From the NCBI RefSeq assembly GCF_001507645.1, contig NZ_CP013909.1, positions 310,001-374,000 of the forward strand: a stretch of DNA of 64,000 nucleotides, written 5' to 3'. Position 1 is the stretch's first letter. The number at the start of each line of letters is the position of its first letter. Position numbers and translations under genes: made by a program. Source of the DNA: Hymenobacter sedentarius (GTDB taxonomy: Bacteria > Bacteroidota > Bacteroidia > Cytophagales > Hymenobacteraceae). The notes below the pieces were generated by a model. The model saw nothing but the letters and a program-made list of their open reading frames with translations, made no database searches and was not told the origin of the DNA. Below, piece after piece: positions 2,791 to 55,675 of this stretch.

Positions 2791-4014
2791 CTAAAACGCT
2801 TCGCCGATGGCGAAGAGAATGCCCGGCTTGCTGCCGGTGCCGCCAGCGTAGTCGAGGCGGAGGTTGAGCCGGTCGCGCCGGATGAAGTTGAAGCGGATGC
2901 CGGCCCCGCCCGCAAACTTGGTTTGGTTGAGCGCGAACTTATCGATGTAGTTGCTCACGTTGCCAACGCCCCCGAATACGGCCCCGTCGAGGCGCCAGAA
3001 CAGCTTCTGGCGCAGCTCGGCCTGGAAGGTTATCATCTGCCGGTCGCGGAACCGCTGCTCGTAGATGCCGCGCAGCAGGTTAGCGTTATTGTACAAGCTG
3101 CCGCCCAGGTTGGCGCCCAGGCCGGCCAGTTCCCGGAAGGGCACCTCGCCGGTATGGAACTGCCCCAGGAACTGCAGGGCTAGAATGGTGCGCTCGGAAA
3201 ATACTGGCTGGAAATGGCGGGCGTCGAGCTGGTAGCGCACAAAGCGGTAGTCGGAGCCCAGGCCCGTGCCGTTGAACATGACGCTGGCATCGAGCAGGTT
3301 GCCGCGAAAGGCCGCCAAGGGCACGTCGCGGGTATCGTAGGTAATAACCGGACCCAGGCCCGAGACGCGGGTATTTTCCCGCTCGCGGGCCGTGAGCCGC
3401 GGGTCGCGCAAAAATACGTTGACGTTGGTGCCCTTGGCGTCTACCGTGCCGGCCGGAATCTCAAGGTTGCGAACGTCGGTGAGGCGGTACTGCGCCCCAA
3501 AAAACACCTTGGGTGCCACCTGCTTCTGTACCCGCTGGTTGATGATGAACAGCTTATAGCCCGTTTCCGACTCGTCGTCGCTGAGGCTTTTGGGCCCGAT
3601 GCCGTAGTAGTACAGCAAAATGTCGTAGGCGCTGATTTCGCCGCTGAGGTAAAACTTCTCGCCCGGTGTATACACCGTGTGCACCAGCTGGATAAGCGAC
3701 TGCTTGTTTTGCGTGGTCCAGTACTGCGCCCGGATGTTGGAAGGGCGCGTGAGGGTATCGCTCGAAAAGCGGCCGCTGAGCAAGCCGCCCAGGCCATAGC
3801 CCAAGCCGGTTTCGGCCTGGTAGAACAGTACCGGAATGGGCAGAATCGTGAGGCGCTTGGTTCGGTCGACGTCCTTGACCCCACGCACCAGTTTTGCCGG
3901 CGGGTCGGTGGCGGCCGGCGTGGCCGTAATGACGGAGTCGGGAGGCGCAACGGGCTGGGCGGTGGCGGCAAAGGCCAGCCCGGCCAAGACCAGGGCTGCG
4001 TAAGGGAAGCGCAT
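2791..4014 (-). CDS. BamA/TamA-like (Omp85-type) outer-membrane barrel protein
   Basis: A 407-residue exported protein. The chosen ATG at 4014 puts a typical signal peptide (MRFPYAALVLAGLAFAATAQ) at the N-terminus; an upstream in-frame start would add 12 residues that spoil it. The body alternates hydrophobic and polar residues with many aromatic-ended strands (LYYYGIGPKS, RLTDVRN), and the C-terminal third (FRELAGLGANLGGS, GGVGNVSNYIDKF, LRLDYAGGTGSKPGI) resembles the bacterial surface antigen (D15) barrel. No POTRA repeats are visible before the barrel, so it is shorter than BamA and may be a small relative rather than an assembly factor. Its cargo or role is unknown. It has its own terminator. 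Confidence 0.75.
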   Translation of the reverse strand: MRFPYAALVLAGLAFAATAQPVAPPDSVITATPAATDPPAKLVRGVKDVDRTKRLTILPIPVLFYQAETGLGYGLGGLLSGRFSSDTLTRPSNIRAQYWTTQNKQSLIQLVHTVYTPGEKFYLSGEISAYDILLYYYGIGPKSLSDDESETGYKLFIINQRVQKQVAPKVFFGAQYRLTDVRNLEIPAGTVDAKGTNVNVFLRDPRLTARERENTRVSGLGPVITYDTRDVPLAAFRGNLLDASVMFNGTGLGSDYRFVRYQLDARHFQPVFSERTILALQFLGQFHTGEVPFRELAGLGANLGGSLYNNANLLRGIYEQRFRDRQMITFQAELRQKLFWRLDGAVFGGVGNVSNYIDKFALNQTKFAGGAGIRFNFIRRDRLNLRLDYAGGTGSKPGILFAIGEAF

Positions 4015-41558: not shown

Positions 41559-42821
41559 ATGGCAGTAAACGACACGCTGGAAGGCACCCATAAAATCCAC
41601 GAGGAGGCCGCCGCGCAGCGCCACGGCCAACTCATGCCCCTGCTCAACGACTTCAGCCAGGAGCTGACGACGCTGAACCTGGGCCCCACGCACCCGGCCA
41701 CGCACGGCATTTTCCAGAACATCCTGCAAATGGATGGCGAGCGGATTGTGTCGGGCGTGCCCACCATCGGCTACATCCACCGCGCATTTGAGAAAATCGC
41801 GGAGCGCCGCCCGTTTTATCAAATCACGCCGCTCACCGACCGGATGAACTACTGTTCGTCGCCCATCAACAACATGGGCTGGCACATGACGGTGGAGAAG
41901 CTGCTCGGCGTGACGGTGCCCAAGCGGGCGCAGTACATGCGCGTGATTATGATGGAGTTGGCCCGCATTGCCGACCACTTGATTTGCAACTCCATCCTGG
42001 GCGTGGACACGGGTGCCTTCACCGGCTTCCTGTACGTGTTCCAGGAGCGCGAGAAGATTTACGAAATCTACGAGGAGGTGTGCGGCTCGCGCCTGACCAC
42101 CAACATGGGCCGTGTGGGCGGCATGGAGCGGGATTTCTCGCCGGTAGCACTGCAAAAGCTGCGCGACTGGCTCAAGACCTTCCCGGCCGTGATGAAGGAA
42201 TTTGAGTCGATGTTCAATCGCAACCGCATTTTCATGGACCGCGTGGTAAACGTGGGCCCGATTTCGGCGGAGAAGGCGTTGAACTACGGCTTCACCGGTC
42301 CCAACCTACGGGCCGCTGGCGTCGACTACGACGTGCGCGCCATGAACCCCTATTCTTCTTACGAGGACTTCGAGTTCGACATTCCGGTGGGCACCAATGG
42401 TGATACCTACGACCGTTTCATCGTCCGCAACGAGGAGATTTGGCAGAGCCTGCGCATCATCAAGCAAGCGCTGGAAAACCTGCCCGAAGGCCCCTACCAC
42501 GCTGACGCCCCGCACTACTACCTGCCCGCCAAGCAGGAAGTGTACAAGAACATGGAGGCCCTGATTTACCACTTCAAAATCATCATGGGCGAGATTGATG
42601 CGCCTGTAGGTGAGGTATATCACTCGGTGGAAGGCGGCAACGGCGAGTTGGGTTTCTACCTGATTTCGGACGGCGGCCGCACGCCCTACCGCCTGCACTT
42701 CCGCCGGCCGTGCTTTATCTATTACCAAGCTTACCCGGAAATGGCCGTGGGCACCACGCTGTCGGACGCCATTGTCATTCTCTCGTCCATGAACGTCATC
42801 GCTGGCGAGCTGGACGCCTAG
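41559..42821 (+). CDS. nuoD: NADH-quinone oxidoreductase subunit D
   Basis: A 420-residue 49-kDa subunit forming most of the quinone pocket. The family signature is LNLGPTHPATHGIFQNILQM (residues 45-64), followed by VPTIGYIHRAFEKIAERRPF and, at the C-terminus, GELGFYLISDGGRTPYRLHF and RPCFIYYQAYPEM. The HPATHG histidine near residue 50 is the quinone contact in homologues. Confidence 0.97.
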   Translation: MAVNDTLEGTHKIHEEAAAQRHGQLMPLLNDFSQELTTLNLGPTHPATHGIFQNILQMDGERIVSGVPTIGYIHRAFEKIAERRPFYQITPLTDRMNYCSSPINNMGWHMTVEKLLGVTVPKRAQYMRVIMMELARIADHLICNSILGVDTGAFTGFLYVFQEREKIYEIYEEVCGSRLTTNMGRVGGMERDFSPVALQKLRDWLKTFPAVMKEFESMFNRNRIFMDRVVNVGPISAEKALNYGFTGPNLRAAGVDYDVRAMNPYSSYEDFEFDIPVGTNGDTYDRFIVRNEEIWQSLRIIKQALENLPEGPYHADAPHYYLPAKQEVYKNMEALIYHFKIIMGEIDAPVGEVYHSVEGGNGELGFYLISDGGRTPYRLHFRRPCFIYYQAYPEMAVGTTLSDAIVILSSMNVIAGELDA

Positions 42822-46113: not shown

Positions 46114-47193
46114 ATGACTCTTCCCGCTCTGGGCTGGCAAGGCCTCGTCGTTCTGGTAGTTTTCGGCGTTTCGCTGCTGATTGCCACGTATTCTACTTAT
46201 GCGGAGCGCGTCATCGCCGCGTTTCTGCAGGACCGGGTGGGCCCGGACCGCGCCGGTCCCTTCGGCCTGCTGCAGCCGCTGGCCGATGCCGTGAAGCTCT
46301 TCACTAAAGAAGAGTTTTTCCCGGCCGGTGCCAACCGCGCGCTGTTCGTATTTGGGCCCTGTCTGGCCATGACCACGGCGCTCATGTCGTCGGCAGTTAT
46401 TCCGTTCGGCAACGTGCTGCAGTTCGGTGAAACGTCTATTCACCTTCAAGGCATTGAAATCAATGTCGGGATGCTCTACGTGTTCGGCATGGTATCGCTG
46501 GGCGTGTACGGCATCATGATTGGCGGCTGGGCTTCAAACAACAAGTTCTCGCTACTGGGCGCCATTCGCGCTGCTTCGCAAAACATCAGCTATGAAATTG
46601 CTATGGGCCTCGCCCTGATTGCCGTGCTGATGATGTCGGGCACACTGTCGCTGCGCGAAATCACCCTGCAGCAGTCGGTGGCCGGCGAGTGGCACTTCTG
46701 GAACATCGCCAAGCAGCCGCTGGGCTTTATCATCTTCATTGTGTGTGCTTTTGCGGAGACCAATCGGACGCCCTTCGACTTGCCGGAGTGCGAAACTGAG
46801 CTGATTGGCGGCTACCACACCGAGTACAGCTCCATGAAAATGGGCCTGTACCTGTTCGCTGAATACATCAACGTATTCGTGGCTTCGGCCGTGATGAGCG
46901 TGCTGTACTTCGGCGGCTTCAACTTCCCTTTCCAATATGAATTGCGTGATTGGTTGGTTTCATCGCAGCACCTAGAGCTGGTGACGGCCTCAAACATCAT
47001 TACCATCCTTGGGCTGGTGGGCTTGTTCGCCAAAATCTTCGGCTTCATCTTCTTCTTTATGTGGGTGCGCTGGACCTTGCCGCGCTTCCGCTACGACCAA
47101 CTGATGCGCTTGGGCTGGACGATTCTCATTCCGCTGGCTATCTTCAACATCCTACTTACGGGCGGCCTGATTACGTTCGGCGTAATTAACTAA
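46114..47193 (+). CDS. nuoH: NADH-quinone oxidoreductase subunit H
   Basis: A 359-residue eight-helix membrane subunit connecting the quinone pocket to the proton pumps. The hallmarks are AAFLQDRVGPDRAGPFGLLQ, DAVKLFTKEEFFP and CAFAETNRTPFDLPECETEL, followed by IGGYHTEYSSMKMGLY. The conserved acidic loop is present. The gene begins 35 bases beyond the repeat at 45991. Confidence 0.97.
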   Translation: MTLPALGWQGLVVLVVFGVSLLIATYSTYAERVIAAFLQDRVGPDRAGPFGLLQPLADAVKLFTKEEFFPAGANRALFVFGPCLAMTTALMSSAVIPFGNVLQFGETSIHLQGIEINVGMLYVFGMVSLGVYGIMIGGWASNNKFSLLGAIRAASQNISYEIAMGLALIAVLMMSGTLSLREITLQQSVAGEWHFWNIAKQPLGFIIFIVCAFAETNRTPFDLPECETELIGGYHTEYSSMKMGLYLFAEYINVFVASAVMSVLYFGGFNFPFQYELRDWLVSSQHLELVTASNIITILGLVGLFAKIFGFIFFFMWVRWTLPRFRYDQLMRLGWTILIPLAIFNILLTGGLITFGVIN

Positions 47194-47198
47194 CGACC

Positions 47199-47777
47199 AT
47201 GGAATCCTTAAGCAAACGCGCCAAAGTCCTCGAAAAGAAGCCCATGACTTTCGCCGAGCGGGCTTACCTGCCGGCGATTTTTCAGGGCCTGACGATTACG
47301 ATGCGGCACTTTTTCCGGGCCGCTACCAAGAAGCAGGTAACCGTACGCTACCCCGACGAGACCCGTCCCTTCTCCCCCGTTTTCCGTGGCTTGCACGTGC
47401 TCAAGCGCGACGAAGCTGGCCGGGAGCGCTGCACCGCCTGCGGCCTCTGCGCCGTGGCCTGCCCTGCCGAAGCCATCACCATGGTGGCCGGCGAGCGCAA
47501 AAAGGGCGAGGAGAACCTCTACCGCGAGGAGAAGTACGCCGTGAGCTACGAAATCAACATGCTGCGCTGCATCTTCTGCGGCCTCTGCGAAGAAGCCTGC
47601 CCGAAAGCCGCCGTGTACCTGCAAGCTGATAAAATGGCCCCGCCGCGCTTTGAGCGCGACGAGTTCATCTACGGCAAAGACCGGCTGGTAGAGCCCGTGA
47701 CGCCGGACAACCGCTCGAAGCGCGGCATCCAACTCACGCCCGAGCAAGCCGACAAGCTGCGTTCGCAACTGGCATAA
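47199..47777 (+). CDS. nuoI: NADH-quinone oxidoreductase subunit I
   Basis: A 192-residue ferredoxin-like subunit with two [4Fe-4S] clusters, N6a and N6b. The cysteine motifs are RCTACGLCAVACPAEAI and RCIFCGLCEEACPKAAVYL, each CxxCxxCxxxCP. It follows nuoH after 5 bases. The N-terminus (MRHFFRAATKKQVTVRYPDE) matches the family. Confidence 0.97.
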   Translation: MESLSKRAKVLEKKPMTFAERAYLPAIFQGLTITMRHFFRAATKKQVTVRYPDETRPFSPVFRGLHVLKRDEAGRERCTACGLCAVACPAEAITMVAGERKKGEENLYREEKYAVSYEINMLRCIFCGLCEEACPKAAVYLQADKMAPPRFERDEFIYGKDRLVEPVTPDNRSKRGIQLTPEQADKLRSQLA

Positions 47778-47779
47778 AA

Positions 47780-47848
47780 TAGCGCGGACTTTTAGTCCGC
47801 GTCCGCTTGTTTATTTTCATCTTCCACGCGGACTAAAAGTCCGCGCTA
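47780..47848. repeat. Double palindrome between nuoI and nuoJ
   Basis: The 23-base arms 47780-47802 and 47826-47848 are perfect inverted copies, and each arm contains its own palindrome CGCGGACTTTTAGTCCGCG. Two small hairpins or one large one can form in a 74-base gap that is otherwise empty. Confidence 0.88.
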
Positions 47849-47851
47849 CTT

Positions 47852-48361
47852 ATGTCCCCTCTGTTCCTGTTTCTCTCGTTCGTGGCCTTGCTGAGTGCGC
47901 TGGGCGTGGTGCTAGCCAAAAACCCGGTCCACAGCGTGCTCTTCCTCATCCTCACGTTCTTCACGCTGTCCGGCCACTACCTGCTGCTGAACGCGCAGTT
48001 CTTGGCCGCCGTGAACATCATCGTGTACGCCGGCGCCATCATGGTGCTGTTTCTTTTTGTGATTATGTTTTTGAACCTGAACGAGGAAACTGAGCCGCAC
48101 AAGCCAGCGCTAGCCAAGTTTGCAGCTGCCATCGCCGGCGGCTCGCTGCTGCTGATTCTGGTAGCCGCTATGCGCAACGTGAGCCCCGCCGGCTACGACC
48201 CCGCCAGCTTCGATTCGCAGATTGGCATGGTTGACCGACTGGGCCTGGTGTTGTTTCAGCAATATGCCTTGCCGTTTGAGTTGGCATCGGTATTGCTGCT
48301 GGCGGCCATGGTGGGCTCGGTAATGCTAGGCAAACGGGAGACGGGCGAGCGGAACTTCTGA
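47852..48361 (+). CDS. nuoJ: NADH-quinone oxidoreductase subunit J
   Basis: A 169-residue membrane subunit with five predicted helices. Hallmarks are LAKNPVHSVLFLILTFFTLS, GHYLLLNAQFLAAVNIIVYA and the pi-bulge helix AIMVLFLFVIMFLNL. The C-terminus is ALPFELASVLLLAAMVGSVM and then LGKRETGERNF. It is followed by a terminator, so nuoK-N are not part of this transcript. A diverged copy of its 3' end lies at 49508. Confidence 0.96.
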   Translation: MSPLFLFLSFVALLSALGVVLAKNPVHSVLFLILTFFTLSGHYLLLNAQFLAAVNIIVYAGAIMVLFLFVIMFLNLNEETEPHKPALAKFAAAIAGGSLLLILVAAMRNVSPAGYDPASFDSQIGMVDRLGLVLFQQYALPFELASVLLLAAMVGSVMLGKRETGERNF

Positions 48362-48382: not shown

Positions 48383-48420
48383 ACAACAAAGCCGCGCCCG
48401 ACGGGTGCGGCTTTGTTGTT
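48383..48420 (+). terminator. Terminator after nuoJ
   Basis: ACAACAAAGCCGC pairs with GCGGCTTTGTTGT around a GC-rich loop. It ends directly at the 3' end of the convergent SWIM gene and may serve both. Confidence 0.8.
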
Positions 48421-48422
48421 AT

Positions 48423-49409
48423 CTAGCCAGCCGCCCTGGGCTGACGGCCGCGCCGCTTGGGTGGTAGAGCAGTGGCTTCCTCGGGAGCAATGGGAGAAAA
48501 GCCGGCGCGTGCCAAGCTCTCACGCAACGCCCGGAGCTGCCGGTACTGCTGCATTAGCTCTGAGGCAAACAGCTGCACCTGCTTGGTGAGGGATGGCAGC
48601 TGAGCCAGGGCTTGCAGACAAGCAGCCAAGCGGTTGTAGAGCGGATAAGCCCGCAAAGCTTTGTTTTGCAGGAAGGCCTCGAACCGTTCCATTACGGCAT
48701 CAAACGCAGCTTCGGGCTGAAAGCGGGCGGCTTCGCTCAGCAGGTATGGCAGGGCGTGGGTATCCGACGCGGGCGGATGCTGCAGCCAGTCAACCGAGAG
48801 CACCAGGGGCAGCAGGTCGTGGCCGCGCTGCTGGGCCAGCAGCTGGTGAGCTTGCTCGGTGAGGGTGAGCGGCTGGCGCGGGGCGGGCCGGCGGGCGAGT
48901 TGAGGCGTTGACTTGGCGGTAAGCCTGGGCGCCGCGGGCAGCGCGGCCAGCAGTTCTTCATCGAACTCGAATGCCTCCAGAAACCGGTGCAACTGCTTGG
49001 GCTTCTGGCTCAGCAGCTGATGCAGGAAGCCTAATTTTTCTTTGTCGCTGGTGCGGGTCCAGGCGCCGTTCAGAATATGCACCGACTGCTCAGCTTTGCT
49101 GAGCTTGGAAGGTGCCAGCGGCTCACTGGCCGGCTCATCTTCCATCAAATCAAGCACCGCCAGGCCCAAGGCGATGCCATGCTTGCACACGTCGCCGTGC
49201 TCGTAAGGGCAGTCGCAATGGATTTCGGGCGAACCGGCGGCCCGGATGGTCAGGCTTACCCGGTACGTATCCGTGCCGCGCACGCGGGCTTTGAAAACAT
49301 TCCCTTTCCGTTGAATGTGCCCAACGGCGTCCTCCTCGTAATAATACGCTGCGCCCCGTTCAAAAATTTTGCTTGGCACGAGAGCCTCCAAATCTTCTTG
49401 GGTGAACAT
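48423..49409 (-). CDS. SWIM zinc-finger protein
   Basis: A 328-residue protein with a SWIM motif CxCx7CxH (Cys65, Cys67, Cys75, His77 in HCDCPYEHGDVCKHG). The rest is helical, Ala/Leu/Gln-rich, with a basic C-terminus (PPKRRGRQPRAAG). The family often occurs with SNF2-type helicases or DNA metabolism but no partner is here. The ATG at 49409 starts MFTQEDLEALVPSKIF; a TTG 27 bases upstream is less likely. It lies between nuoJ and a nuoJ remnant. Confidence 0.85.
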   Translation of the reverse strand: MFTQEDLEALVPSKIFERGAAYYYEEDAVGHIQRKGNVFKARVRGTDTYRVSLTIRAAGSPEIHCDCPYEHGDVCKHGIALGLAVLDLMEDEPASEPLAPSKLSKAEQSVHILNGAWTRTSDKEKLGFLHQLLSQKPKQLHRFLEAFEFDEELLAALPAAPRLTAKSTPQLARRPAPRQPLTLTEQAHQLLAQQRGHDLLPLVLSVDWLQHPPASDTHALPYLLSEAARFQPEAAFDAVMERFEAFLQNKALRAYPLYNRLAACLQALAQLPSLTKQVQLFASELMQQYRQLRALRESLARAGFSPIAPEEATALPPKRRGRQPRAAG

Positions 49410-49507
49410 GAATGACGGCACAAAGAATTGCGGCAAATTTAGGTAAGTGCATCTGTGCCCACTAACGTTATAACTACCAATTCAATCGCTAGTCAGTCTC
49501 AGAAAAT

Positions 49508-49573
49508 CTGCTAGCATCCATGGTGGGCTCGGTAATGCTGGGCAAACGTGAAACAGGCGTAAGAAGCTTTTGG
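49508..49573 (+). pseudogene. Remnant of a second nuoJ 3' end
   Basis: Bases 49508-49573 align with the end of nuoJ (48296 to the stop codon). The encoded peptide keeps LLA, MVGSVMLGKRETG, then VRSF against ERNF in nuoJ, and the stop TGA reads TGG. Most differences inside the shared codons are synonymous (CTG/CTA, CGT/CGG, GAA/GAG, ACA/ACG, AGA/CGG, TTT/TTC). A hairpin follows, as after nuoJ. No upstream part of nuoJ and no nuoK are present. Confidence 0.75.
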
Positions 49574-49584
49574 GCTTCTGTGCC

Positions 49585-49629
49585 GATAACAAAAGAGCCG
49601 CACCCTGAGGGCGCGACTCTTTTGTTATC
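49585..49629. terminator. Hairpin after the nuoJ remnant
   Basis: GATAACAAAAGAGCCGC and its near-complement GCGACTCTTTTGTTATC form a long stem with A and T runs on both sides. Confidence 0.75.
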
Positions 49630-49663
49630 AGAAAAACAAACAGCTCAGGTAGCCGATGACGGG

Positions 49664-49879
49664 TTAATTATATATACCAGCGATGGGGCGCGTTATGCGG
49701 GCCATAGCGTGTGAGGCTACTGATACCGAGCGGTAAGTAGGCACGCGCATCTTCGATACGGGCGACGATGCGAGTTGCAGGCGAATGAGCGAGGTGCTCA
49801 AACCCATAAACAGAACAAAGGCGGCGAAGGCGTAAAATTTAGACACGTGCAGAAAGCGTTTAAGAGGATAACTGCTCAA
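49664..49879 (-). CDS. Possible small membrane protein (doubtful)
   Basis: An open frame of 71 codons beginning with TTG. It has one hydrophobic segment (FYAFAAFVLFMGLSTSLI) and a basic N-terminus (PLKRFLHVSK), which could be a membrane anchor or signal peptide. No family is recognised, and no promoter or clear ribosome-binding site is seen. It is kept as a candidate because the region has no other gene. A 14-base palindrome TTTAACCGGTTAAA lies 74 bases upstream of its start. Confidence 0.3.
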   Translation of the reverse strand: MSSYPLKRFLHVSKFYAFAAFVLFMGLSTSLIRLQLASSPVSKMRVPTYRSVSVASHAMARITRPIAGIYN

Positions 49880-50010
49880 ACTTACTGGGCTGGTTTGCCT
49901 TCAGATTTACTACCTCGCTGAAGGATTCGGATTACTCGTTGAACGGTGGATTTTTAACCGGTTAAATATTCAGATTAGGCAATAGATAAGGACGCTACTT
50001 AACGGGGCAT

Positions 50011-50050
50011 AAAAAAGCGGCGCCTGAAGTATCAGGCGCCGCTGCTGTTT
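50011..50050 (-). terminator. Terminator of aspS
   Basis: AGCGGCGCCTGA pairs with its complement TCAGGCGCCGCT over a short loop; on the minus strand a run of T follows. Confidence 0.88.
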
Positions 50051-50066
50051 CTACCGTCACACGAAG

Positions 50067-51830
50067 CTACTTCGCCACTACCGCCGTGGCAATGCTCAAT
50101 TCCTTGAGTTGAGCACCCGAAATCGGCGAGGGCGAGTCAATCATCACGTCGCGGCCGGAGTTGTTCTTCGGGAAGGCGATGAAGTCGCGGATGGAATCGG
50201 CACCGCCGAAGAGGCTGCAGAGGCGGTCGAAGCCGAAGGCGATGCCGCCGTGGGGCGGGGCGCCGTACTCGAAGGCGTCGAGCAGGAAGCCGAACTGGGC
50301 CTGGGCTTCTTCGGGGGTGAAGCCGAGCAGGCCGAACATGCGGGCCTGCACGGCGCGGTCGTGAATGCGGATGGAGCCGCCACCCACTTCTACGCCGTTA
50401 ATCACAAGGTCGTAGGCATTGGCGCGAACCTGGCCGATGGTGTCGGGCGAGTCGAGCAGGGCCAGGTCTTCCGGCTTGGGCGAGGTGAAGGGGTGGTGCA
50501 TGGCGAAGTAGCGGTTTTCCTCATCGCTGTATTCGAGCAAGGGGAAATCGACCACCCACAGTGGCGAGAAATCGTCTTTGTCGCGCAGGCCGAGGCGCTG
50601 GCCCATCTCCAGGCGCAGCTCGCTCATGGCTTTGCGGGCCTTGTTGGGCTCGCCGGCGATGATGAGCAGCAGGTCGCCTTCGTGGGCGTTGAAAGCCGTC
50701 TTCCAGCGCTGCAGCTCTTCCTGTGAGTAGAACTTATCAACCGACGACTTCACCACTCCACCGGATTCGACGCGAGCGTAGATGAGGCCAGTAGCTCCGA
50801 TTTGGGGGCGCTTTACGAAATCCGTCAGCTCGTCGAGTTGCTTGCGGGTGAAATGAGCACAGGTGGAAGCATTGATGCCCACGACCAGCCCAGCGTTATC
50901 GAACACGGGGAAGCCCTGGCCCTGTACAATTTCGGTCAGCTCAACGAACTCCATGGCGAAGCGCGTGTCGGGCTTGTCGTTGCCGAAGCGGCGCATGGCG
51001 TCGGCGTAGGTCATGCGGGGGACGGTTGGGAAGTCGAGGCCCTTGATTTCCTTGAACAGGTAGCGGGTCAGTCCTTCGAAGGTGTGCAGGATGTCTTCCT
51101 GGGTCACGAAGGCCATTTCGCAGTCAATCTGCGTGAACTCGGGCTGGCGGTCGGCGCGCAGGTCTTCGTCGCGGAAGCACTTCACAATCTGGAAGTAGCG
51201 GTCAAATCCCGACACCATAAGTAGCTGCTTGAACGTCTGGGGCGACTGCGGCAGGGCGTAGAACTCGCCGGGGTTCATGCGTGAGGGCACCACAAAGTCG
51301 CGGGCGCCTTCGGGCGTGGACTTGATGAGCACCGGCGTTTCGACTTCGATGAAGTGCTGGCCGTCGAGGTAGCGGCGCACGGCTTGGGCCATTTTGTGGC
51401 GCAGCATCAGGTTGTTGCGCACGGGGGTACGGCGCAGGTCGAGGTAGCGGTACTTCATCCGCAGGTCGTCGCCGCCGTCGGTTTCGTCTTCGATGAGGAA
51501 GGGCGGTAGCTTGGCGGCGTTGAGAATTTCGAGCTTCTCGGGACGAATTTCGATGGCGCCTGTGGGCATCTTGTCGTTTTTGGAATGGCGTTCTACCACC
51601 TTTCCGGTCACGCTCAGCACAAATTCGCGGCCGAGGTGGCGGGCGGTTTCGCGCACTTCGTTGGCTTCCACGCCTTCTTCCAGGGCTATTTGGGTGAGGC
51701 CGTACCGGTCGCGCAGGTCAATCCAGAGAATGGCGCCTTTGTCGCGGGTGCGTTGCACCCAGCCGCAAAGCGTGACGGTTTGACCAATGTGTTCGGGGCG
51801 GAGTTCGCCGCAGGTGTGGGTACGGAGCAT
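50067..51830 (-). CDS. aspS: Aspartate-tRNA ligase
   Basis: A 587-residue class II synthetase of the bacterial type. An N-terminal OB anticodon-binding domain ([20 protein letters not shown]) is followed by motif 1, motif 2 ([20 protein letters not shown]), the bacterial GAD insertion (about residues 290-420) and motif 3 ([16 protein letters not shown]). The ATG at 51830 starts [10 protein letters not shown], matching homologues; a longer in-frame start adds 35 residues not seen in the family. It lies divergent from the 51985 gene. Confidence 0.96.
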
Positions 51831-51984
51831 GGCAAAAGGGTTTTGGGCAAAGTTAGGCCCTTGGGCTAAGAAGCCAACCGCCAACTGGCGAACCTCCCGA
51901 CGGCGCTTCCCGCATTTTTGGTACGGAGTATGCAAAGGCCGACAGCAAGTGCGTTCCTTTGTCTTCTCAATCCTTCAATTGTCA

Positions 51985-52425
51985 ATGAAATTCCTCCCCT
52001 CCTTCGCACTCGCGGCCGCCCTATTGTTTGCCGGCACCGCCCAGGCACAAACCAAAGTCAAGACCAAAAACAAGTCGGACGAGTCGGGCACCGTGGTGAA
52101 AGCCAAGGGCACGGCCGGAGCGGTGACGCTCGACGGCCCCATCAAGCGCATCGAAACGCTGTCGGGCATAGACGTATTTCCCAAGCCCAACTCCACCAGC
52201 ATCCTGCTGAGCTTTACCCAGCAGTTCACCAAGCCCGGTACGCTGGTGATGACGGACTACAAGAACCGCGTCATTTACCAAACTGAGCTCGACCCGGCCA
52301 ACAACACCGGCGCCCCGGTAGACTTGGGCAAGATTCCGGCCGGCACCTATTTGGTCGAAGCCAAAACCGGCAACTACGTCTACTGGAAGAAGGTGCGGAT
52401 TAAGTACCCCGCCGTTCGGCGCTAA
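51985..52425 (+). CDS. Exported hypothetical protein
   Basis: A 146-residue protein with a signal peptide (MKFLPSFALAAALLFAGTAQ). The mature part has a Lys-rich start and a beta-sandwich C-terminus (LVMTDYKNRVIYQTELD, KIPAGTYLVEAKTGNYVYWK), which resembles the fold of T9SS C-terminal domains without the usual NPF motif. It may be periplasmic or surface-exposed. Function unknown. The ATG at 51985 lies directly before the signal peptide. Confidence 0.7.
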   Translation: MKFLPSFALAAALLFAGTAQAQTKVKTKNKSDESGTVVKAKGTAGAVTLDGPIKRIETLSGIDVFPKPNSTSILLSFTQQFTKPGTLVMTDYKNRVIYQTELDPANNTGAPVDLGKIPAGTYLVEAKTGNYVYWKKVRIKYPAVRR

Positions 52426-52502
52426 GGCCCCGAAGACCTACGGCAGTGCCACGGCCCCCCAGCCGTGGCACTACTTTTATCCCCTCATCGTTGCTGCTTA
52501 CC

Positions 52503-53051
52503 ATGAAGATTTTCTCGTTTCTGCTGTTGATTCTTGGCCTCACGGCCTTTGTCCCGAAGCCCAAGCTGACGAATGTCAAGCTCGGCTCAGGCCTGACGGT
52601 TGGCGTGCCGGCCGGCTTTATGCCCCTGCCCGACGACGGCATTGCGGTGAAGTACCCGTCGCCGCGCAAGCCGCTGGCCGTGTACTCCGACCCCAGCGGC
52701 CGCGTGGACTACAGCGTGGCCGTGCGCCCCACCACGTTCGAAAGCATGGACTACGGCGTGCTGCTCAAGATTTACAAGTCCAGCATTCAGCGCCTGTATT
52801 CCAAGGTTGACTTTCTGAAGGAAGACATCCGCACCGTAAACGGGCGCGATTTCATTTACTTCGAATTTGTGTCGACCGTGACGGATACGCGGCGCGGCAG
52901 CCAGTTGGCGCCCATCAAGAAATACCAGGCGGTGCAATACGCCATTGAGGGCCAGCAGCTGTATGTCTTCACCTTCGTGGCTCCCGCCGAAGAGCAAGCC
53001 AAGTGGCAACCCACCGCGCAAGCTGTTATGAATACCATTGCGCTGAAATAA
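52503..53051 (+). CDS. Exported PsbP/DcrB-like hypothetical protein
   Basis: A 182-residue protein starting with a signal peptide (MKIFSFLLLILGLTAFVP). The mature part has a mixed alpha/beta look with VPAGFMPLPDDGIAVKYP and GRDFIYFEFVSTV, and ends LYVFTFVAPAEEQAKW and TAQAVMNTI, reminiscent of DcrB/PsbP-like domains (DUF1795). The assignment rests on fold-like pattern only. The start at ATG 52503 gives the signal peptide. Confidence 0.65.
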   Translation: MKIFSFLLLILGLTAFVPKPKLTNVKLGSGLTVGVPAGFMPLPDDGIAVKYPSPRKPLAVYSDPSGRVDYSVAVRPTTFESMDYGVLLKIYKSSIQRLYSKVDFLKEDIRTVNGRDFIYFEFVSTVTDTRRGSQLAPIKKYQAVQYAIEGQQLYVFTFVAPAEEQAKWQPTAQAVMNTIALK

Positions 53052-53094
53052 GGCCATCGGCCAAGGCGAGGCGCTTTCTTGGTTCATTATCCTT

Positions 53095-53154
53095 TTAGCC
53101 CAATAAAAGAACCCCCGGCACTGCGCAGTGCCGGGGGTTCTTTTATTGGGCTAA
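53095..53154. terminator. 60-base perfect palindrome, bidirectional terminator
   Basis: The sequence from 53095 to 53154 equals its own reverse complement without mismatch, centred between 53124 and 53125, with core GGCACTGCGCAGTGCC and flanking A/T runs. Separates the DcrB-like gene from tadA. Confidence 0.88.
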
Positions 53155-53159
53155 TTTTG
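53152..53159 (+). promoter_or_regulatory. -7 box TAATTTTG upstream of tadA
   Basis: TAATTTTG matches TAnnTTTG and lies 31 bases before the tadA ATG. Its first bases are the last bases of the palindromic terminator. Confidence 0.5.
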
Positions 53160-53190
53160 CCGGGCTCACACCGCCCGGGCTCCGCCTCTC

Positions 53191-53622
53191 ATGACCGACG
53201 ACTTTTTCATGCTTCAAGCGCTGGCCGAGGCCGAAAAAGCTCTGGCGGCCGATGAAATTCCCATCGGGGCCGTGGTGGTGTTCGAGAAACAGATAATTGG
53301 GCGGGGCTACAATCAAACCGAGCAGCTGCGCGACGTGACGGCCCACGCCGAAATGCTGGCCCTGACGGCCGCCGCCAACCACCTGGGCAATAAATACCTG
53401 GCCGATTGCACCCTCTACGTCACCATTGAGCCGTGCGTGATGTGCGCCGGCGCCAGCTACTGGGCCCAACTAAAAGCGGTGGTGTTTGGGGCCAGCGAGC
53501 CCAAAGTGGGGTTCCGGCGCCACGGCCAGCTCCTGCATCCCAAGACCCAACTGCGCGCAGGCGTGCAGGCCGAAGCTTGCGCCGCGCTGATGCAAGCGTT
53601 TTTTAGTTTAAAGCGGAAATAA
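53191..53622 (+). CDS. tadA: tRNA-specific adenosine deaminase
   Basis: A 143-residue zinc deaminase that converts wobble A34 of tRNA-Arg to inosine. The zinc/catalytic motifs are VTAHAEMLAL (His52, Glu54) and TIEPCVMCAGA (Cys82, Cys85). Length and the FGASEPKVGFRRHG segment fit TadA. The ATG at 53191 follows the terminator and promoter. Confidence 0.93.
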   Translation: MTDDFFMLQALAEAEKALAADEIPIGAVVVFEKQIIGRGYNQTEQLRDVTAHAEMLALTAAANHLGNKYLADCTLYVTIEPCVMCAGASYWAQLKAVVFGASEPKVGFRRHGQLLHPKTQLRAGVQAEACAALMQAFFSLKRK

Positions 53623-53625
53623 ATC

Positions 53626-53698
53626 TACTTTTGAACCTGAGCGGGCGCTGGTCGTAACTAGATATCTAGTTAGGCTATTTTAGCGCCTGCTCGGTTTT
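53626..53698 (+). promoter_or_regulatory. sodA promoter and leader hairpin
   Basis: TACTTTTG at 53626-53633 fits the -7 box. It is followed by a large stem: the AACCTGAGCGGGCGCT region near 53634-53649 pairs with AGCGCCTGCTCGGTTT at 53682-53697, with two mismatches. Inside the loop lies the 18-base perfect palindrome TAACTAGATATCTAGTTA (53655-53672). The start codon is 35 bases further on. It could be a terminator for tadA, an operator or a leader control element. Confidence 0.5.
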
Positions 53699-53732
53699 TC
53701 ATACGCCCGTCCACCCAAAACCCTTTTCACTT

Positions 53733-54347
<615 letters not shown>

Positions 54348-54556: not shown

Positions 54557-55675
54557 ATGTCCAAGAAATTGTTTGAGCCGGCTCAGCTGGGCCCCCTTAC
54601 TTTAAGCAACCACATCGTAATGGCCCCGCTCACGCGTAGCCGCGCGATTGGCAACGTGCCCAACGAGCTGATGGCGGAGTACTACCGCCAGCGCGCCACG
54701 GCGGGCCTGATTATTACGGAAGGCACCTCGCCCTCGGCCGACGGGCTGGGCTACGCTCGCATTCCGGGCCTGTTCAATCAGGAGCAGGTCACCAACTGGC
54801 AGCGCATCACCGAAACGGTGCACCACCACGGCGGCCATATCTTCATACAGCTCATGCACGCCGGGCGCATCGGCCACACCCTCAACCTGCCCGCCGGCGC
54901 CGAAGTGCTGGCCCCCTCGGCCATCACGGCTGCGGGCCAAATGTGGACCGATGAGCAGCAGCTGCTGCCCCATACCCAGCCCCGCGAAATCCGCACCGAC
55001 GAGCTGGCTCGCCTGCGCGACGAGTATATTCAAAGCGCCAAGCTGGGCATTGATGCCGGCTTCGACGGCGTGGAGGTGCACAGCGCCAACGGCTACTTGC
55101 TTTCGCAGTTCCTGAACCCGCACAGCAACCAGCGCACCGACGCCTACGGCGGCAGCGTGCAGAACCGGGCCCGCTTCGTGCTGGAGGTAGCCCAGGGCGT
55201 GGCCGATGCCATCGGGGCCGAGCGCACGGGCATCCGCCTTTCGCCCTGGGGCACCGACGCCGACATGCCGCACTACCCCGAAATGGACGAAACCTACGCC
55301 TACCTGGCCGAGGAGCTCCAAAAAATCGGTTTGGTGTACGTGCACCTCGTCGACCACTCCAGCATGGGGGCCCCTGCCGTGCCGGCCGAAACGGTGGCCA
55401 CCATTCGCCGCCTGTTCACCAACACCCTCATCCTGAGCGGAGGCTACGATGCCGAGCGCGCCGAAGAAGCCCTGCAAAGCGGCCGCGCTGACCTGGTGGC
55501 CTTCGGTAAGCCCTTCATCTCGAACCCCGACCTGGTCGAGCGCCTCAAGACCGGCGCGCCGTTGGCTCCCCTCGACGCGGACAAGCTCTACACGCCCGGG
55601 CCCGAGGGCTATATCGACTACCCAACCCTGGATGGCCAGCCCGCAGGCACGTTCTCGCCTAGCTACCAAGCTTAG
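54557..55675 (+). CDS. Old Yellow Enzyme family alkene reductase
   Basis: A 372-residue FMN-dependent TIM-barrel ene-reductase. The barrel starts LGPLTLSNHIVMAPLTRSRA; the active-site region is GFDGVEVHSANGYLLSQFLN, followed by RTDAYGGSVQNRARF, then the phosphate-binding AFGKPFISNPDL. It is close to NemA, which reduces N-ethylmaleimide, glycerol trinitrate and similar electrophiles using NADPH. It is a stand-alone gene. Confidence 0.92.
   Translation: MSKKLFEPAQLGPLTLSNHIVMAPLTRSRAIGNVPNELMAEYYRQRATAGLIITEGTSPSADGLGYARIPGLFNQEQVTNWQRITETVHHHGGHIFIQLMHAGRIGHTLNLPAGAEVLAPSAITAAGQMWTDEQQLLPHTQPREIRTDELARLRDEYIQSAKLGIDAGFDGVEVHSANGYLLSQFLNPHSNQRTDAYGGSVQNRARFVLEVAQGVADAIGAERTGIRLSPWGTDADMPHYPEMDETYAYLAEELQKIGLVYVHLVDHSSMGAPAVPAETVATIRRLFTNTLILSGGYDAERAEEALQSGRADLVAFGKPFISNPDLVERLKTGAPLAPLDADKLYTPGPEGYIDYPTLDGQPAGTFSPSYQA

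Follow-up and report, generated by a model that had tools for sequence, protein, structure and literature searches.

The window, a stretch of 64,000 nucleotides of the Hymenobacter sedentarius genome, carries an intact nuoJ, a gene for a SWIM zinc-finger-like protein (SWIM) on the opposite strand behind it and, beyond SWIM, a second, truncated copy of the nuoJ 3' end, here called the remnant. The features of the locus are as follows:

47778-47851 (no strand): gap between nuoI and nuoJ with a dispersed palindromic repeat, probable left crossover zone between an ordinary nuoI and an outlying nuoJ
47852-48361 (+): nuoJ, intact, probably a foreign allele (PF00499, E 9.1e-44)
48296-48361 (+): copy 1, the repeated nuoJ tail inside the intact gene
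48383-48423 (+): hairpin T1, 3' of nuoJ, stem unbroken on + (-31.1 kcal/mol on +, z -8.1)
48423-49409 (-): SWIM gene, probable incoming cargo (328 aa counted from ATG), with homologues beside nuoJ in other Hymenobacter
49410-49507 (no strand): SWIM upstream region, ending at the junction
49508-49573 (+): remnant, orphan nuoJ 3' end left by displacement, stop codon lost
49589-49629 (-): hairpin T2, terminator-like for the small reverse gene, stem unbroken only on -
49664-49846 (-): small conserved reverse gene in the right flank, 94% identical in BT770

The nuoJ tail and its remnant

Alignment of the two tails bears out the initial annotation, which had noticed that the 3' end of nuoJ (48296-48361) recurs downstream: the 66 nt at 49508-49573 repeat the final 22 codons of nuoJ with 52/66 identical bases (80% over 65 bases in a separate comparison), and the similarity extends into the hairpins at 48383-48423 and 49589-49629 (76% over 41 bases). 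As that annotation also stated, SWIM (48423-49409) and a terminator-like hairpin (T1, 48383-48423) lie between the copies, and the SWIM stop codon falls at the edge of T1. The arrangement is that of a displaced 3' end: the intact nuoJ comes first, and beyond the SWIM cargo its 3' end recurs in 5'-truncated form. A genome search with 49440-49900 matched the nuoJ tail at E 1.7e-10, and the next-best 66-nt match inside the window on either strand reached 35/66 as compared with 52/66 for the remnant, which rules out a chance match as source of the repeat. Likewise, the possibility raised at the outset that the shared region is a common repeat unrelated to nuoJ had to be discarded, because frame, codons and downstream hairpin are all preserved in the remnant. 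A readthrough ORF at 49520-49714, which was without a Pfam match, was dismissed as a gene.

Remnant and copy 1 differ at 14 bases, distributed over codon positions 1, 2 and 3 as 2, 2 and 10. Twelve codons are changed, eight of them synonymously, and the other four give A->S, E->V, N->S and stop->Trp; the latter three fall in the last five codons of the remnant and A->S lies outside them. The earlier impression that nearly all changes are synonymous is therefore correct for the core peptide MVGSVMLGKRETG, which is identical in copy 1 and remnant, but not for the last five codons, where the reported loss of the stop codon was also found. When the changes are placed at random and G/C sites are given 1- to 5-fold weight, the third-position bias of the differences from copy 1 (10/14) has a P of 0.001-0.006, and for the changes private to the remnant (9/13 at third positions) the same weighting gives P 0.003-0.015. 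Mutation bias as the sole cause of this pattern is insufficient with G/C weights of 1 to 5 times, and since the third-position bias exceeds it, we conclude that the tails diverged largely while coding. For much of the time since they separated, both tails belonged to working genes, in agreement with the original view, now backed by the P of 0.001-0.006, that the copy diverged while functional and is no simple recent duplication.

The two hairpins differ in the strand on which they fold best. As minus-strand RNA, T1 yields -28.1 kcal/mol with one mismatch, and T2 folds with -38.2 kcal/mol on the minus strand and with -27.7 kcal/mol and a broken stem on the plus strand. This is suggestive of T2 having been kept for the small reverse gene and seemingly not for a gene ending at the remnant; the opposite-strand unbroken stems of T1 and T2 could reveal which gene each terminator serves. 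In H. rubidus (locus L005), a hairpin-like stretch on the far side of SWIM (about 3178-3215) resembles T1 of the window by eye, and the hairpin after nuoJ resembles T2, also by eye.

Divergence of nuoJ and its flanks from BT770

The closest named relative of the window is Hymenobacter BT770, in which nuoJ is followed by a hairpin, the small reverse gene and aspS, without SWIM. BT770 matches window positions 49508-54000 in one alignment at 93.6% identity through aspS, 54000 being the end of the compared stretch, and this alignment starts inside BT770's own nuoJ, at the very codon where the remnant starts. As the right flank aligns to BT770 from 49508 onwards, the remnant sits at the position that the nuoJ end has in a genome lacking SWIM. 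When 49574-49640 was compared with 44 loci and with copy 1, the best match was the post-nuoJ segment of BT770 (58/65, score 41), to which the segment after copy 1 scores only 5; the seven best matches to the latter segment include no SWIM-bearing relative. Over the 133-base segment overall, glacialis reaches 109 versus a slightly lower 101 for BT770; this and the lack of a SWIM-bearing relative among those seven matches speak against the replacement favoured below. The right-hand genes show ordinary divergence from BT770, and the orphan end thus adjoins a resident flank, as judged from the alignment beginning at 49508, the 58/65 match and these genes. The small reverse gene gave no Pfam match at E 0.01, where a longer ORF was searched, and no NCBIfam match at E 0.1.

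A genome search found one full nuoJ in addition to the remnant. The protein encoded by this gene is 100% identical to that of BT770, and the two genes differ at 30/95 fourfold sites (0.316), which places nuoJ second of 48 window reading frames, the median of the other 47 being 0.133. The scan kept reading frames with a third-position share of at least 0.5 and a coverage of at least 0.7, and hence some genes are missing and a few frames may be non-genes. Pooling of six neighbours gave 123/931 (Fisher P 1.1e-5 versus nuoJ), comparison with aspS alone gave P 0.005, and nuoI, directly upstream, shows an ordinary divergence of 12/98. The sole frame above nuoJ, at 54557-55672 (43/125 = 0.344; 81.8% aa identity over 75% of the ORF), may represent another foreign allele or may have been matched to a paralogue. 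At the other extreme, 46440-47339, comprising most of nuoH and the start of nuoI, is nearly identical to BT770 (59 or 60 of 60 per block), above the rest of the region and likely through recent exchange, and the ORF at 41559-42818 is near-identical as well (3/199 fourfold sites differ).

From the outlying divergence it follows that nuoJ is foreign in either the window strain or BT770; being pairwise, the measure gives no direction. In the nuoJ tree the window pairs with BT770 (98/96) on a branch of 0.074 versus 0.037 for BT770, a hint that the foreign allele is that of the window. Together with the resident-like sequence adjoining the remnant, the outlying divergence makes the present nuoJ with SWIM the likelier newcomer. 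Because nuoI is ordinary (12/98) and nuoJ outlying (30/95), the left boundary probably lies near 47778-47851. In 90-base windows along nuoJ, BT770 is nearest in 6/8, with one tied, and there is no clear breakpoint inside the gene. Window and BT770 carry different short repeats in the nuoI-nuoJ gap. The window's repeat is a palindrome, GCGCGGACT-NNN-AGTCCGCG, often paired about 40-100 bases apart. A genome-wide search for exact copies of its core gave 22 in forward and 21 in reverse orientation, compared with 0 for a reversed control; many of the forward and reverse matches are one palindromic site read on both strands. A similar repeat lies beside the nuoJ start in another locus (L004).

These comparisons also bear on a purely local origin, in which the nuoJ end and its hairpin were duplicated around SWIM within the lineage and one copy decayed, with no outside allele involved. 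Copy 1 and remnant do have five bases in common against BT770, and over their first 51 bases only 7 differences separate them, a figure equalled by glacialis and artigasi. Nevertheless, the bias of the differences to third positions, the position of nuoJ as a divergence outlier and the far greater nearness of the post-remnant segment than of the post-copy-1 segment to that of BT770 (41 vs 5) lead us to give a local duplication little credence.

The sequence around the remnant is itself less similar to BT770 than the rest of the right flank. By block, identity over 49508-49679 is 42/52, 38/60 and 48/60, compared with ~93% beyond, and remnant and BT770 tail differ at 7/12 fourfold sites, which in this comparison of only 66 bases gives P 0.0003 at the neighbour rate of 0.132 and 0.05 at the 0.316 of nuoJ. 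Resident sequence diverging at the neighbour rate should show fewer such differences, and the excess counts against the reading that we favour, namely the replacement of the resident nuoJ by a related strain's block. Both observations would fit an arrival of remnant and T2 together with SWIM: the displacement would then have taken place earlier, in the donor lineage, and the whole nuoJ-T1-SWIM-remnant-T2 block would have been moved by homologous recombination with a right crossover near 49640-49680. Given that BT770 is the nearest match to the sequence immediately behind the remnant (58/65), and that 0/80 named loci carry a second nuoJ tail downstream (within 5 kb, or to the locus end), we regard this course of events as unlikely while according it an appreciable chance. 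The best downstream score for the nuoJ tail in the 80 loci was 38/66, equal to the best reverse-strand score, and shuffled sequence reached 34/66. In the genus search, in which at most five candidates per genome were scored, the SWIM-to-tail junction was not found in the 119 other genomes, and 49440-49507 had no match outside its own genome. Within the sampled genomes, the event seems private to the lineage of the window.

Gene order after nuoJ and occurrence of SWIM

The initial annotation had proposed that a second nuo operon, or that of another lineage, once continued at the remnant and was replaced or deleted. The former coding of the remnant would agree with a second operon that was later deleted. 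However, the genome has a single full nuoJ and a single nuoK, the latter about 81 kb away on the other strand (the search was limited to these two genes), and 33/80 named loci have aspS after nuoJ without nuoK in the stretch covered, as in the window. By these gene orders nuoJ is the normal end of the gene row in the window's kin; a lost second operon is unneeded, and we consider it extremely improbable. In 34 of the 80 loci, those of Rufibacter, Adhaeribacter and Hymenobacter less like the window, nuoK follows nuoJ by about 0.15 to 4.5 kb, and in the other 13, some of them incomplete, neither nuoK nor aspS was found. Replacement, the other half of the proposal, is retained as the best reading, its implied polarity being probably reversed, with the present nuoJ the likelier newcomer.

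The SWIM protein scored 16.0 bits with the Pfam SWIM model, under the cut-off of 19.6, and a CxCx(n)CxH pattern, which we take to be that of the SWIM motif, is visible in it. Counting the window's own genome, SWIM occurs at E <= 1e-30 in 10/120 genomes of the genus; nuoJ lies in the same locus in nine of the ten, the tenth being a contig of 4979 bases. On a nuoH+nuoI tree of 24 chosen rows SWIM is present in 6/24, which needs at least five gains or losses, and it is unclustered, as 197/500 label shuffles need as few changes. For this reason simple vertical inheritance of SWIM is not favoured, and on its present distribution SWIM looks to be a patchy guest at the nuoJ site; alternatively, an old residence with repeated loss may apply. 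The SWIM tree is too weakly resolved to name a donor. In a 32-row tree the window is sister to BT770 within a set of seven rows, the six other members of which (BT770, arizonensis, jeongseonensis, glacialis, terrenus and montanus) are all without a SWIM match after nuoJ. This tree left out 13/45 rows for missing genes, including rubidus and IS2118, both with SWIM. IS2118, left out for want of aspS, pairs with glacialis in the 24-row tree, and therefore SWIM is not absent from the wider clade. Other relatives have a different gene in the same gap: the one that we tested encodes a PhyH-type oxygenase (Pfam, E 3e-16), eight more loci have gap ORFs that are similar to it in sequence by eye, and two tree rows (L105 and L109) were labelled PhyH from gap size alone.

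In H. roseosalivarius (L131, 5001-9209), a longer SWIM-like sequence, in two parts, occupies the space between nuoJ and nuoK; SWIM and nuoJ may therefore have been linked before nuoJ and nuoK became separated in the window's kin. This observation, the adjacency of SWIM and nuoJ in 9/10 SWIM-bearing genomes and the presence of SWIM in IS2118, near glacialis, are what would be expected of the mirror case, with SWIM and the present nuoJ as residents, onto which the nuoJ tip and hairpin of a SWIM-less relative were joined from the right, and with SWIM repeatedly lost in relatives. Such a history would, however, require several independent losses of SWIM around the window and a foreign nuoJ in BT770, despite the longer branch of the window, and the right flank shows ordinary divergence from BT770; we judge it to be quite improbable. 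Whether by replacement of the resident nuoJ, by displacement in a donor lineage or in this mirror case, the remnant derives from a second nuoJ allele, whose end was displaced.

Origin of the remnant and related systems

The explanation to which we give somewhat better than even credence is that a nuoJ-hairpin-SWIM block of a related strain replaced the resident nuoJ, and that an illegitimate right join left the old 3' tip as a scar. We infer the direction and the recombination steps of this replacement from what the genomes directly display: the repeat, the single full nuoJ, its outlying divergence, the BT770 homology from 49508 and the patchy SWIM. The ancestor of the window strain would have had nuoJ, hairpin, small reverse gene and aspS, like present BT770, and DNA from a related strain with nuoJ, T1 and SWIM would have recombined in. 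The left join would have been made by homology, near or just before nuoJ, and the right join, without long homology, would have linked the SWIM upstream region to the final 22 resident nuoJ codons. The outcome would be a complete foreign nuoJ, the gain of SWIM and a resident tip with its hairpin pushed downstream, where the tip would have decayed afterwards and the hairpin been retained for the small reverse gene. Under replacement the donor must be a close, unsampled lineage, because the window still groups with BT770 in the nuoJ tree (98/96); no donor genome was found among the genomes compared.

Known counterparts of the remnant are the orphan 3' ends that have been displaced at rhs, CDI and type VI effector loci. 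For Vibrio cholerae, shifted 3' ends and orphan immunity arrays are described at type VI effector loci, with old gene ends shifted back, and a mechanism akin to homology-facilitated illegitimate recombination is proposed (PMC5361080). These loci share with ours an incoming module, an upstream homology anchor, the replacement of a resident gene or gene end and the pushing of old parts downstream, but they concern competition effectors, whereas here a housekeeping respiratory subunit and a SWIM-like cargo are involved. In rhs C-terminal displacement and with CDI orphan ends, displaced 3' ends similarly lie after an intact gene; our locus differs in having a single decayed tip and in lacking an effector-immunity pair. 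As reported for Acinetobacter, Streptococcus and Pseudomonas, homology-facilitated illegitimate recombination combines one homologous end with one non-homologous join, as here; our case is reconstructed from a genome after the fact and was not observed. A literature search on Hymenobacter and nuoJ found no paper.

Most likely, then, the remnant is a clear and fairly ordinary scar of DNA exchange between bacteria, combining allele replacement with gene gain. On a wider scale, it is possible, and we suggest it tentatively, that the nuoJ 3' end is a recurrent landing site in Hymenobacter, where cargo (SWIM, PhyH-type oxygenase or none) would be swapped via recombination anchored in the conserved gene, the remnant being the fossil of one swap. 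A displaced-3'-end scar of the kind familiar from polymorphic effector loci here closes a row of housekeeping respiratory genes, and two nuoJ alleles lie 1.2 kb apart in one genome, so that this genome and a few close relatives offer a way to study a small exchange between strains.
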